Origin: a virus
Direction: 5' to 3' (one strand)
Virus record (IMG/VR): IMGVR_UViG_3300025887_000119
Location: 1 to 28,083 of that record
Length of the DNA: 28,083 nt
Below, piece after piece: positions 1,726 to 6,506 of this stretch. The notes under the pieces are model-generated. The model was not told the DNA's origin, made no database searches, and saw only the letters and a program-made list of their open reading frames with translations. Position 1 is the stretch's first letter, and the number at the start of each line of letters is the position of its first letter. The position numbers and the translations under genes were made by a program.

Positions 1726-1764
1726 GTAGTAGGTATATTCATATACATTCATATACCCTACTAC
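1726..1764 (-). promoter_or_regulatory. Stem-loop between two left-arm genes
   Basis: GTAGTAGGTATAT (1726-1738) pairs with ATATACCCTACTAC (1751-1764) across a 12-base loop, giving a 13-pair stem with one bulged base. It overlaps the stop codon of the 281-residue protein gene and ends about 20 bases before the ATG at 1706. There is no T-run after it on the minus strand, so a simple terminator is unlikely. RNA processing, mRNA 3'-end protection or translational control are possible. Confidence 0.55.
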
Positions 1765-2630: not shown

Positions 2631-3926
2631 TTATACCTTAGCCTCGGTACGAATCCTCTTCACAGTCTCATCGTCCAAGCCACCAAACACATACTCACTA
2701 AGCACACTCTCCATGTCACATCCATCAAGCAATGCACGTCCACCTTTCAGGCTTGCTCTAGGTGATATGACACAACGTATCTTCATTTCATCCTTTGCCT
2801 TACGTAGTTTCTGCACAATCTTCGTGAAGTTTCTATCAGGACTGATAAGCAACTCAAGTTTCTCATCATAGTCAAGGCTGATCACCGGCTTGAACCTGTC
2901 AATGGTTGCACCATCTAGCTGATTCCTACCAACGTACTCCCTGTCTGCACCTCTGCCATATGTATTGGCACATGCTATCAAGCGGAAGTTCGGGTGTTTC
3001 TCGACCACTCCACATGGGAAGTCAGCTACATCATTCTCCATTGATGCATTCAGAGCCACCAGTGCTTGAGGATTTGAACCATCGATCTCATCGAATAGGA
3101 ACAAGCCACCATCACGAAAGCATTTGACGAATGAGGACTCAACGTAGTTGCCATTAGCATCCATGTATCCTCTTACCTCGTAAGCTTGGAACATAGCACC
3201 GGACATACCGAATTGATAATCATCTTGCTCAAAGGCTTTGCCTAGCATGCCAGTCAACTGGGTAGCCATCGTGGTCTTACCACTACCTGCACCACCTACA
3301 AGCAACACATTGTCACCACGTATCAAGGCTTTGAGTACCTGTGGCAACTTCTCATGCATTGTCTGCTCACCAAATTCGATCTTGCCTTTAGGCTTTTTGA
3401 TCTCAATGGTAGTCTTGCCACCGCCATGCTCATCAATCAATCTTTTGATTGTCTCCTCATCAACACCATCATGCATGCCATCGCTCAAGGTCGGATGAAC
3501 CTTTTTGATGATATCAACGATCTCCTTTTCAAGAGCATTCTTAGGCTCATACTCTTCGAGAACCTCAGGCATTCCTACCTCATCACCTGCACCATCTGCA
3601 TCATCTGCATCATCGTCAGCATCATCACTGGCATCATCTGCATCACCGGCATCAACACCATCATCATCATCAGCATCAACCGCACCATCAGTAGGCTCAT
3701 CACCTGTTGAGTCGTGATCGTTATCACTTTTGATCTCAGCGATGTCGATATTGTTATACAACTCGATGAGTTCTACATCGGACATTTGACTAGCACGTTT
3801 GCCATAGGCAACAGCCAATCGTTTGAGGATGTTGCGTTCACCGCTAGTGAGTTCATCCAATGTGCAAGGGAATCCGAACATTGCTTTAGCACTCTCAGCA
3901 ATATTAATTATCATATCTACATTCAT
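2631..3926 (-). CDS. CobS/MoxR-type AAA+ ATPase with acidic linker
   Basis: A 431-residue protein. Residues 1-60 form a small helical domain; residues 66-116 are an acidic linker made almost wholly of Asp, Ala and Gly; the AAA+ core follows. Walker A is GGAGSGKTT (211-219), Walker B is LFLFDEID (275-282), and sensor 1 is the Asn of IACANT (316-321). The core most resembles CobS, MoxR and CbbQ ATPases, which remodel partner proteins and usually work with a VWA-domain protein. In phages these are often annotated as cobaltochelatase CobS, which is probably misleading: no cobalamin genes are present. The start is preceded by the shared leader AACTGGAG (3933-3940). The biological role in the phage is not established. 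Confidence 0.88.
   Translation of the reverse strand: MNVDMIINIAESAKAMFGFPCTLDELTSGERNILKRLAVAYGKRASQMSDVELIELYNNIDIAEIKSDNDHDSTGDEPTDGAVDADDDDGVDAGDADDASDDADDDADDADGAGDEVGMPEVLEEYEPKNALEKEIVDIIKKVHPTLSDGMHDGVDEETIKRLIDEHGGGKTTIEIKKPKGKIEFGEQTMHEKLPQVLKALIRGDNVLLVGGAGSGKTTMATQLTGMLGKAFEQDDYQFGMSGAMFQAYEVRGYMDANGNYVESSFVKCFRDGGLFLFDEIDGSNPQALVALNASMENDVADFPCGVVEKHPNFRLIACANTYGRGADREYVGRNQLDGATIDRFKPVISLDYDEKLELLISPDRNFTKIVQKLRKAKDEMKIRCVISPRASLKGGRALLDGCDMESVLSEYVFGGLDDETVKRIRTEAKV
3585..3690 (-). repeat. GAT/GCT-type codon repeat encoding the acidic linker
   Basis: The stretch is a degenerate triplet repeat, on the plus strand mostly catcatctg-type units, that codes for the Asp/Ala-rich linker of the AAA+ ATPase. 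It is in frame and does not interrupt the gene. Such a tract can vary in length by slippage in multiples of three, so related phages may differ here. Confidence 0.6.
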
Positions 3927-3949
3927 AACTATCTCCAGTTAAACTGCGT

Positions 3950-4540
3950 TTAAACAACGAACAGACTATCAGTCTGCTCACAAGCAGGACATGGTGCAGT
4001 ATCCATGTCTAGCATAAGTACGTTCTTACGACTTGTACGAAAGTGAAAGTCACAACTACCACAGCATACCTTCAGCATCCTAGTGGATTGTTTCTTCGTA
4101 AAGTCAATGTCGATTGAGCCATGCGGATAGTCTCCCAAGAGACTAAGCACATCCTGTATCTGTAAGGTCAAGCGTTCACCGGCATTAGTAGCTGTAAGCT
4201 TGCCCTCAAGTCCGATTCCTCTCGCTAAGCGAGCAAATCTACCTTTGTGTCCACTCTCCATCCTATCCACTACATGAACAAGTTCATGTGCCAATACCTC
4301 CAATGCTTGAAGTCCATCATCAATCACCGGATTGATAAACACCTCGAAGTGATTATCACTTGATGCCTCTGCATTGATGCAGACACCGGCTACCTTCCCA
4401 CCTCGGTGACGAGGGGCATATCCGACAGACACTCTGTAGAGTGGCATGTCATGCCAATGATTATTGCTTTCAGCAAATGTGGCGATCATCTGATCAGCAC
4501 CTTCGGTGAGCCAAGCCTCACGATCTGTATAATTTTCCAT
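3950..4540 (-). CDS. SprT-like zinc metalloprotein
   Basis: From the ATG at 4540 the product is 196 residues (MENYTDREAWLTEG); an ATG at 4543 is directly adjacent. The zinc-protease signature HELVH lies at residues 85-89, and a second histidine in the segment ESGHKGRF at about 98 gives the third ligand, as in SprT/Spartan proteins. A C-terminal zinc ribbon is formed by CCGSC (159-163) and CPAC (184-187). Spartan-type enzymes cleave proteins cross-linked to DNA; in phages the substrate is unknown. The leader AACTGGAG is present (4548-4555), preceded by a large stem-loop. The stop codon overlaps a GTTTAAAC site. It lies immediately upstream of the CobS-like ATPase gene. Confidence 0.8.
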   Translation of the reverse strand: MENYTDREAWLTEGADQMIATFAESNNHWHDMPLYRVSVGYAPRHRGGKVAGVCINAEASSDNHFEVFINPVIDDGLQALEVLAHELVHVVDRMESGHKGRFARLARGIGLEGKLTATNAGERLTLQIQDVLSLLGDYPHGSIDIDFTKKQSTRMLKVCCGSCDFHFRTSRKNVLMLDMDTAPCPACEQTDSLFVV

Positions 4541-4561
4541 CATATTTCTCCAGTTGTTTTA

Positions 4562-4604
4562 GTTTAAATACTCCCTTCACTTAAGTTCAGGGAGTAGTTT
4601 AAAC
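4562..4604 (-). promoter_or_regulatory. Long stem-loop before the SprT-like gene
   Basis: GTTTAAATACTCCCT (4562-4576) pairs with AGGGAGTAGTTTAAAC (4589-4604) with one bulged G, giving a 15-pair stem and a 12-base loop TCACTTAAGTTC. It fills most of the gap between two minus-strand genes and lies just upstream of the AACTGGAG leader. It closely resembles the stem-loop at 5526-5565, including loop ends TCACT and GTTC. There is no T-run behind it. Confidence 0.7.
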
Positions 4605-4613
4605 AAAGGGTTA

Positions 4614-5087
4614 TTAGCAAGTCTCTACGAGACCGCCGTTCAAATCAGCAAGGTGAAACCCTGCATCATCCCATGTGAACTTATAGTTCACTATAGGGTT
4701 AATCTTCCATTCAAGCAGATGCTTGAATTCATCACCTGACACATGACCTGCACTGAGGTAGATGCCATCCTTCGTCTTACGAAGGCACAAGTCCTCATAT
4801 GCTGAGTCACACAGAGCAAATTCATCGGCTCGGTAGTAGACTTCGCCCATCACTTCCCCTATCAAGTACAACTGATCTTCATCAGTCCTGTCCCACAGTC
4901 GGAGCAGAGTGAAACCTCTGCCATCATCTGCCGGCATCATCAAAGGGTAGCCATCGACAAACAGCCATCCATTCTCGACACTGTCATTGCCACAGACGAA
5001 GGGCAAGCCCTTTATGTAGGCATCTGCCATCCTCTCTCGTGGCGAGCAAACACTGCCATTCGGTCGGTGAGTTATTACATTTTCCAT
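4614..5087 (-). CDS. Unknown phage protein of 157 residues
   Basis: The start at 5087 (MENVITHRPNGSVCSPR) is preceded by AACTGGAG (5094-5101) and, before that, a perfect short stem-loop. The sequence looks like a compact beta-rich soluble protein with several Trp and Tyr residues (GWLFVDGYPLMM, LLRLWDRTDEDQLYLIGEV). There are four to five cysteines but no regular zinc-binding spacing. I recognise no family. Position between two other unknown genes and the SprT/ATPase pair suggests an early or middle role. Confidence 0.6.
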   Translation of the reverse strand: MENVITHRPNGSVCSPRERMADAYIKGLPFVCGNDSVENGWLFVDGYPLMMPADDGRGFTLLRLWDRTDEDQLYLIGEVMGEVYYRADEFALCDSAYEDLCLRKTKDGIYLSAGHVSGDEFKHLLEWKINPIVNYKFTWDDAGFHLADLNGGLVETC

Positions 5088-5103
5088 ATCATTCTCCAGT
5101 TGT

Positions 5104-5119
5104 GAGGTCTTTAGACCTC
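5104..5119 (-). promoter_or_regulatory. Short perfect stem-loop before the 157-residue gene
   Basis: GAGGTC-TTTA-GACCTC is a perfect six-pair hairpin (seven if the inner T-A closes). It lies directly after the stop of the 124-residue protein gene and ends two to three bases before the AACTGGAG leader of the next gene. The loop TTTA is shared with hairpins at 5670-5687 and 6187-6202. Confidence 0.6.
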
Positions 5120-5120
5120 G

Positions 5121-5495
5121 TTAAGCAAAATAACCAGTGTCAGGATATTCTATCCTGTGGTCACCCAGTTCCTCGTCATAGCTTGCATAATCCTCATCAG
5201 CCTCATTTACTTCGTAAATTCGTGCATCCGCAAGATCACACTCACAATCCATGTACCTCCAAAAAGGCTCATCAGCAGAGTAGCAATCCAAGAGTTTCAG
5301 GCGCAGTCTTTCAGACTCACGCACAACTCTTGTAGCTAATCCGTTCTCTTTAAGAAAGGTGTTAACCTTTCTCATGTAGTAGTTAGACGTAACCCTGAAA
5401 GGGCTGAGCGTAACTACATCACCTCTCACTCTAGCTACGTAGCGACCATTGATCGCCATATAGTTTCCGCTACCAGTATCTTCGTAATCAATCAT
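5121..5495 (-). CDS. Unknown acidic protein, first gene of the left arm
   Basis: The 124-residue product (MIDYEDTGSGNYMAING) starts at 5495 behind the shared leader AACTGGAG (5502-5509). Its N-terminal half is beta-rich with a GRYVARVRGDVVTLSPF segment; the C-terminus is very acidic and Tyr-rich (EVNEADEDYASYDEELG). It is the first gene downstream of the promoter at 5590-5619, so it may be among the earliest expressed in this arm. Acidic first-expressed phage proteins are sometimes host-inhibitory, but nothing here demonstrates that. No family recognised. Confidence 0.6.
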   Translation of the reverse strand: MIDYEDTGSGNYMAINGRYVARVRGDVVTLSPFRVTSNYYMRKVNTFLKENGLATRVVRESERLRLKLLDCYSADEPFWRYMDCECDLADARIYEVNEADEDYASYDEELGDHRIEYPDTGYFA

Positions 5496-5525
5496 TCGTT
5501 TCTCCAGTTGTTGTTTGGGGGATAT

Positions 5526-5565
5526 GGTTTAAACCCCCTTCACTACGTTCAGGGGGTTTTAAACC
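5526..5565 (-). promoter_or_regulatory. Long stem-loop in the leader of the left-arm transcript
   Basis: GGTTTAAACCCCCT (5526-5539) pairs with AGGGGGTTTTAAACC (5551-5565) with one bulged T around an 11-base loop TCACTACGTTC. It lies between the minus-strand promoter at 5590-5619 and the first gene of the arm, so it would be part of the leader RNA. The left arm contains one GTTTAAAC octamer. With no T-run after it on the minus strand it is more likely a processing or control element than a terminator. Confidence 0.7.
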
Positions 5566-5589
5566 TATCCTCCTACCATTTCAGCCACC

Positions 5590-5619
5590 ATTCTAGTTCA
5601 TGGACATTATGCCTGTCAA
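5590..5619 (-). promoter_or_regulatory. Sigma70-like promoter for the left arm
   Basis: On the minus strand there is a perfect TTGACA (5614-5619), an 18-base spacer and TAGAAT (5590-5595), one mismatch from the -10 consensus. It lies in the divergent gap between the left-arm and right-arm genes and points at the gene starting at 5495, giving a leader of about 85-90 bases that contains the 5526-5565 stem-loop. This is the best promoter match I found in the window. Activity is inferred. Confidence 0.65.
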
Positions 5620-5669
5620 CTCGTAGGTGAATGTGGGGTTGCCGAAGGAATCGTATTGATCTACGAAAA

Positions 5670-5687
5670 GGTATGGTTTACCATACC
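5670..5687 (+). promoter_or_regulatory. Perfect inverted repeat over the small-terminase ribosome-binding region
   Basis: GGTATGGTTTACCATACC is a seven-pair perfect hairpin with loop TTTA ending three bases before the ATG at 5691. It occupies the place where a ribosome-binding site should be, and there is no good site elsewhere. It could be an operator for a DNA-binding protein, such as the terminase itself, or a translational switch. Confidence 0.6.
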
Positions 5688-5690
5688 TCT

Positions 5691-6146
5691 ATGACAGATC
5701 AAAAGACAAAGAATCCTATAGGTACACTAAGCGTCAAAGAACGCTTATTTGCTAGGTATAAGGCTAAAGGCTATTCCAATGGCAAGAGTGCCGAGTTAGC
5801 AGGTTACAAGGCAGGAACTAGCGCAGACAAGCAAGGCTACCGGTTGTCCAAAAAAGCTGATATACAAGACGAAGTCTCTAGGATATTGGCAGAGCAAGAG
5901 ACAAGAAGTCTCATTGACAGGGAATCACACCTCGATCAGTTAGCAAAGCTACGAGATAAAGCCGTTGATACAGGGCAGATAGGCTCAGCAGTAACTGCTG
6001 AACACTACAGAGGAAAGGTAGCCAACTTATATACAGAGAGACTAGAAGTCTCAGACACTAATAAGGAAACCTCAGATGAGATAATGCTACGCATCAGTAA
6101 ACTCCTTGGCAAAGATTCAGAGGATAAGGATAAATCCTTACACTAA
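5691..6146 (+). CDS. terS: Terminase small subunit (Terminase_2-like)
   Basis: Starting at 5691 (MTDQKTKNPIGTLSVKER) the product is 151 residues. Residues 13-65 match the N-terminal helix-turn-helix region of the Terminase_2 family: a leading LSVKERLFARYKAKGYS helix, then SAELAGYKAG and a helix ending ILAEQ. The rest is helical with an acidic-basic C-terminal tail (KDSEDKDKSLH). The small subunit recognises phage DNA and regulates the large terminase. The frame is open back to 5631, where an ATG follows AGGTGA very closely, so a 20-residue longer form is possible; the ATG at 5691 fits the family better. The large subunit gene follows after 405 bases. Confidence 0.75.
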   Translation: MTDQKTKNPIGTLSVKERLFARYKAKGYSNGKSAELAGYKAGTSADKQGYRLSKKADIQDEVSRILAEQETRSLIDRESHLDQLAKLRDKAVDTGQIGSAVTAEHYRGKVANLYTERLEVSDTNKETSDEIMLRISKLLGKDSEDKDKSLH

Positions 6147-6186
6147 GCTGTTTAAACTCCACTGAACTGTAGCATGTAGTTATACC

Positions 6187-6202
6187 AGAGTGTTTACACT
6201 CT
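6187..6202 (+). promoter_or_regulatory. TTTA-loop hairpin downstream of the small terminase gene
   Basis: AGAGTG-TTTA-CACTCT is a perfect six-pair hairpin, followed by TTTCCTGT. It lies 40 bases after the stop of the small terminase gene. The short pyrimidine tail makes it at best a weak terminator. The loop is the same as in hairpins at 5104-5119 and 5670-5687. Confidence 0.5.
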
Positions 6203-6413
6203 TTCCTGTAGGACTAGGCACGCAGTTCCGCACCCCCACCCCCCCTGTACACAAGCGGGACTCCGCCCACACACATATACATACTGTTCCAAATAATTAC
6301 ACAGTAAAAAATGAGTTTTATTTAACAAAGCATTTACATACCCCTACCCCCCTAGTTCAGATAAACGCTCTAGGTTCATATGGCTAGAAAAATTTTGCAA
6401 AAAAAATGGAGGT

Positions 6414-6506
6414 GAGGCTAGTCTTATTGCTCATAGGGTGATCAAACTAGCCTCTAGGGTGTGGACTGGATGTTTAGAGTGTAAGACAGTCCTCTGGAGA
6501 TACCCT
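6414..6506 (+). promoter_or_regulatory. Two inverted repeats upstream of the large terminase gene
   Basis: GAGGCTAGT (6414-6422) pairs perfectly with ACTAGCCTC (6446-6454). Directly after it, AGGGT (6456-6460) pairs with ACCCT (6502-6506), enclosing GGACTG (6463-6468) paired with CAGTCC (6487-6492). Together they form two stem-loops in a row ending 45 bases before the ATG at 6552. They may form an RNA leader structure or a DNA packaging signal. It does not match a tRNA. Confidence 0.5.

Follow-up and report, generated by a model that had tools for sequence, protein, structure and literature searches.

The window analysed here is the whole of a 28-kb virus record, and no similarity was found between its DNA and cultured phages. 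It contains a leftward operon, on the minus strand, which starts at about position 5495 and runs away from the terminase genes. The operon holds a series of hairpins. Three stem-loops, one in front of each of three gene leaders, had been noticed in a first-pass annotation, and all three are present (hp1, hp2 and hp3); a further one, at 1726-1764, had been overlooked. The features are as follows.

5590..5619, minus strand: promoter-like site TTGACA-18-TAGAAT, conserved in relatives
5526..5565, minus strand: hp3, G·A-capped leader hairpin at the head of the leftward operon; pairing reaches about 5520-5570
5502..5509, minus strand: AACTGGAG leader / Shine-Dalgarno of the 124-aa gene
5121..5495, minus strand: 124-aa gene behind hp3, without a family match
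5104..5119, minus strand: hp2, plain-tipped hairpin GAGGTCTAAAGACCTC, within the second leader cassette TTAACGAGG..CCTCACAACTGGAGAA
5094..5101, minus strand: AACTGGAG leader / Shine-Dalgarno of the 157-aa gene
4614..5087, minus strand: 157-aa gene, behind hp2 in the window and behind hp3 in contig L006
4562..4604, minus strand: hp1, G·A-capped leader hairpin 5' of the SprT-like gene
4548..4555, minus strand: AACTGGAG leader / Shine-Dalgarno of the SprT-like gene
3950..4543, minus strand: 197-aa gene, PHROG 6361; cultured-phage relatives are annotated as SprT-like protease
1726..1764, minus strand: third G·A-capped hairpin, GTAGTAGGGTATAT-GAATGTATATGA-ATATACCTACTAC, 19 nt before the likely start codon (1706)

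The two long hairpins, hp1 and hp3, are related as had been claimed, sharing a GTTTAAA outer stem, a CCCT/AGGG inner stem and one bulged base. Their loop had been described by its TCACT and GTTC ends, which is correct for the plus strand; the relevant coding strand is the minus strand, on which the order is GTTTAAA outer stem, one bulged base, G/C-rich stem and U-GA-AC-loop-GU-GA-A. Here the opposed GA/GA, a tandem G·A mismatch, stacks on two base pairs and a loop of 3-4 bases. On the sense strand the cap has the general form 5'-YGA-AC-NNN-GU-GAR-3', in which the tandem G·A is followed by two base pairs and then a small loop. While hp1 and hp3 are thus one design, hp2 has no cap and is a separate plain-tipped type, present in relatives as a conserved, covarying cassette.

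Folded together with its leader, hp3 reaches -28.6 kcal/mol (z -4.8) and hp1 reaches -19.2 kcal/mol (z -3.6), with none of 200 dinucleotide shuffles as good in either case; for hp2 the values are -9.3 kcal/mol and z -2.3 (4/200 shuffles). The pairing of hp3 starts 19 nt downstream of the -10 box of the promoter-like site. Neither long hairpin was listed, on either strand, by a test for intrinsic terminators (a G/C-rich hairpin followed by a T-run), which bears out the earlier view that they are not simple terminators. At the gathering cut-off, nothing in Rfam 15 matches the window or the hairpins of 16 further loci, and a search of positions 3900-6500 at a relaxed level returned nothing convincing.

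Several other sequences in the window deserve mention. The AACTGGAG word is not rare, having 6 exact minus-strand matches, one of them within a plus-strand gene, and 31 matches with one mismatch where 23 are expected. A GACA..TGTC inverted repeat between the -35 and -10 elements at 5590-5619, and in the counterparts of this site in relatives, is a possible operator. An extra minus-strand hairpin, GAGCAGACTGATAGTCTGTTC, is found at 3958-3979, overlapping the 3' end of the SprT-like gene and preceding a AACTGGAG leader at 3933. The palindrome GTTTAAAC, which makes up the outer stem of hp1 and hp3, is strongly over-represented, with 11 copies against 0.75 expected in the window (at 2619, 3948, 4597, 5527, 6150, 10549, 13276, 17456, 19968, 25313 and 25564), and likewise in the relatives G001 (58.6 kb; 30 against 1.7) and G002 (28 against 1.6). 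It occurs in coding and non-coding DNA, and most copies lie outside hairpins.

Is the fold of these hairpins maintained by selection? Leaders of SprT-like orthologues, which were fetched by protein similarity and not by the hairpin, contain it in 22/22 of those extracted; in two (L022 and L023) GA is opposite AA instead of GA. Of the cells in the 8 distinct sequences of the hairpin, 98.5% are paired, and four pairs are changed on both sides, giving a covariation score of 0.193 compared with 0.072 when shuffled (0/500). The two arms therefore do change together, as had been suggested. The covariance-model search proposed in the first-pass annotation was run with a model seeded from sequences chosen to leave out the close relatives of the window. 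It recovered both long hairpins (5534-5556, E 1.1e-7; 4571-4594, E 1e-4) and a match at 1733-1756 (E 0.036); the 1726-1764 hairpin also has counterparts in G001, G002, G009, G010 and G011.

A count of 2x2 internal loops on the sense strand gave 55 of the GA/GA type and 5 for any other type, a roughly tenfold difference; the 52 TC/TC loops are the mirror of the same sites. Because most of the contigs had been selected for one such hairpin each, the fair excess is about 30 further copies. Most of the GA/GA hairpins (45/55) lie no more than 70 nt 5' of an ATG frame, and GA/GA is not among the 2x2 loop types listed for control terminase-relative phages. In an alignment of 35 sequences all 8 pairs covary; since these sequences were selected for pairing, the orthologue leaders and the loop count carry more weight. 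Two pattern scans of IMG/VR, both conditioned on a sequence core and with public contigs as the search space, extended the set. The core flanked by TTTAAA is found in 82 stretches, many of which are perfect stems with differing sequences and others chance matches; the second pattern, without TTTAAA, added more phages among the matches listed, together with clear chance matches inside coding frames.

Capped hairpins are present in several phage groups with dissimilar terminases, many of them marine and including HMO-2011, and the terminases of some bearers are only about 23-24% identical. Among the matches listed, 79 distinct capped hairpins precede a reading frame, with the tip AC/GT in 68, AT/AT in 9 and a T-A closing pair in 71. 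Their triloops are mostly R-N-A, the total stem is 9-32 bp and a bulge is frequent. They usually lie 15-60 nt ahead of a start codon, and the linker, mostly of 10-59 nt, is A/C-rich in many. Most start 2-16 nt after the upstream stop codon, on the sense strand; in the window, HMO-2011 and G009 a sigma-70-type promoter (TTGACA-18-TAGAAT in the window), 13-21 nt upstream of the hairpin, takes the place of the stop codon. Given these starting points, the hairpin is an element of the gene that follows it. One contig, G013, has ten capped copies, which lie mostly along consecutive genes and in which the inner pairs covary too.

The cultured SAR116 phage HMO-2011 has one capped hairpin, before gp74, and a wider search from gp74 matched HMO-2011 itself only. 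No capped hairpin is present in the 50,000 bases scanned of each of the cultured terminase relatives DSL-LC04, HTVC027P and 023Pt_psg01, nor within the 28,501 bases scanned of the SprT-bearing Microbacterium phage Floof. Microcystis phage Mvi-JY20 contains a bulged, weaker relative of the hairpin, which failed the strict scan. We found no description of the motif in the literature searched, which covered few subscription journals.

Similar sequences were also seen in other contexts. Among the matches listed, a SAR116 single-cell contig (L347, CACHEI010000065.1) contains a capped hairpin of the phage type, its stem 21 bp long, which may link such phages to a host. One phage contig with a capped hairpin, L192, also has a match to the type II hammerhead ribozyme at 353-428 on the minus strand, at 37.7 bits against an Rfam cut-off of 37. 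Bacilli/Tenericutes MAGs (L310, L320, L323, L338, L339, L353, L366 and others, among the matches listed) have a repeated leader, TAATTCCTATGTGTG-CCTTGAACGTAGTGAAAGG-AATGRAACTTAGTATG, directly 5' of different genes and often at contig ends. In the Gemmataceae MAG JAIEPT01 (L308, L312, L319, L335 and L373) CACGCCCTGAACGTAGTGAAGGGCGTG is highly repeated, and the copies are often paired in inverted orientation at a spacing of about 79 bp.

Within the window's family the leaders and the genes behind them vary separately. The promoter and hp3 are fixed and the next gene varies, and hp1 accompanies the SprT-like gene despite variable sequence upstream of the hairpin. The second leader type, that of hp2, reads AACGAGG(N)CCTCACAACTGGAG, and its stem covaries. 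Four gene families are preceded by hp3 in one contig and by an hp2-type leader in a different one: THRPNG (hp3 in L006, hp2 type in the window), ATEVAT (L011 and L016), NISADKL (L017/L021 and L020) and MAKANQERI (L025 and L022). Genes have therefore been swapped while the leaders stayed in place, and recombination could happen within the sequence that the leaders share. The suggestion that stem-loop and leader form a repeated control cassette has thus held up, as the cassettes are found again in relatives, with genes moving from one to another. In the window's family and in relatives of G013, plain-tipped hairpins stand in similar positions. A strict requirement for the cap, which had been considered, was dropped on finding these plain-tipped leaders; the cap looks like an interchangeable stable tip.

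What kind of control would such cassettes exert? We infer that the hairpins act in the mRNA, with a role in stability or processing, and that they confer translational independence. The explanation that we favour, with a probability of about 0.5, is that they are portable 5'-leader modules of phage mRNAs, which affect mRNA stability or processing and make translation independent. Each module would open with a long hairpin and continue through an unstructured A/C-rich linker to a Shine-Dalgarno sequence and start codon. The hairpin would form near the 5' end of the primary transcript for the first gene, or right after the previous stop codon for later genes, where it may protect the 5' end of each coding unit from ribonucleases, or define that end, and keep the ribosome-binding site open, independent of the upstream gene. 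Any gene placed behind the leader would thereby be expressed. The G·A mismatches and small loop would provide a stable cap that can be swapped with plain tips. Several features favour a structural role in the 5' leader: the hairpins are on the sense strand, between the stop codon and the Shine-Dalgarno sequence, there is one copy per gene, and they interchange with plain hairpins, whose presence in comparable places fits such a role. Against this explanation, G-U pairs are near absent (9 G·T against 1411 Watson-Crick pairs), which is unusual for selection on RNA only, and the same tip is present, among the matches listed, in bacterial REP-like repeats.

The tip is also more uniform than mechanics alone would call for, although that sequence had been used to retrieve most of the contigs, and this leaves room for a binding protein. 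The capped hairpin might be the site of a specific host or phage RNA-binding protein which represses or activates translation of the bearer genes. The near-uniform tip on covarying stems and the several capped copies per genome fit this proposal, which we nonetheless consider unlikely; an all-against-all comparison gave no protein family common to all the bearers compared, and plain-tipped hairpins are found in comparable positions. A further reading, in which a widespread, undescribed phage RNA motif is recognised by a conserved bacterial factor, serves unrelated phages as a tag on individual genes for coordinated post-transcriptional control and doubles as a unit of cassette exchange, is speculative and a little less probable still. 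Are the hairpins instead RNase III-type processing sites, splitting the polycistronic mRNA into gene units as in T7? They lie between genes and in the first leader, like those of T7, and their long stems are interrupted by a bulge and an internal loop. No match to a phage-encoded RNase III was found, and the host enzyme would serve. However, the stem is variable (9-32 bp) and the tip conserved, when a cut in the stem would need the reverse, and we think this explanation rather improbable.

The few G·U pairs, the likeness of the C-RNA-G loops to the sheared-G:A loop of N4 virion RNA polymerase (vRNAP) promoters and the occurrence of the tip in REP-like repeats give a small chance to a role in DNA, where the element, in a single-stranded or supercoiled state, would act as a REP-like mobile palindrome or an extruded hairpin. 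This we judge very unlikely, as the hairpins are strongly oriented with the sense strand of the next gene, the stem sequence differs from copy to copy, the hairpins of N4 have short stems and belong to the template strand, and the Y1/RAYT transposase profile PF01797 was not found in 18 records, with positive controls, though a host might supply such an enzyme. Least credible is a nut/put-like antitermination signal modifying RNA polymerase. It would suit the place of hp3 just behind the operon promoter, and lambda boxB has a CCCU/AGGG stem with U-A closure beside a sheared G·A; however, antitermination would make one copy per gene unnecessary and the loop architecture is different.

On the favoured reading as portable 5' leaders, these results point to a gene-expression module that is absent from the RNA-family catalogue searched (Rfam). 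It would be a searchable RNA element for phages, including uncultured marine ones in which most early genes are unnamed, marking 5' leaders and start codons and revealing the slots of accessory-gene exchange. The leader is amenable to test in a cultured phage, HMO-2011, which has one copy.

The closest known arrangements share some of these features. T7, with its RNase III sites and gene-10 leader hairpin, has hairpins both between genes and in its first leader, leading into a linker and Shine-Dalgarno sequence. The present hairpins have the same positions, open linker and Shine-Dalgarno sequence, with a conserved G·A cap that T7 lacks. The boxB hairpin of lambda resembles them in its C/G stem, U-A closing pair and sheared G·A in the tip. 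Its loop is of five bases and GNRA-like, which is not the case here, where the tip is GA-AC-NNN-GU-GA, with tandem G·A, two pairs and a loop of 3-5 bases.

The start-associated sequences (SAS) of cluster K mycobacteriophages consist of a fixed stretch of 13 bp, GGGATAGGAGCCC, at the start codon, and the extended-SAS repeats have a fixed consensus (PMC3203893). The likeness lies in a conserved start-codon sequence, an inverted repeat just upstream of it, which is present here, and the association with a subset of non-structural genes (PMC3203893). The GGGATAGGAGCCC sequence itself was not encountered, the leaders here being AACTGGAG and similar. Whereas the SAS authors found little support for RNA pairing (PMC3203893), the stems here covary. 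The N4 vRNAP promoter is a short-stem hairpin on the template strand, with a 3-base loop and a G:A pair closed by C-G (PMC4496689). The three-base loop, G:A pair and C-G closure are shared, whereas the present total stems are long, at 9-32 bp, and the cap is on the sense strand. The single-subunit RNA polymerase profile PF00940 was silent in all records, and in the controls as well. Some bacterial REP-like palindromes have the same tip, for example CACGCCCTGAACGTAGTGAAGGGCGTG in the Gemmataceae MAG. In these it is the entire element that recurs, frequently in inverted pairs, whereas in the phage leaders the tip alone does so and the stems vary by copy.
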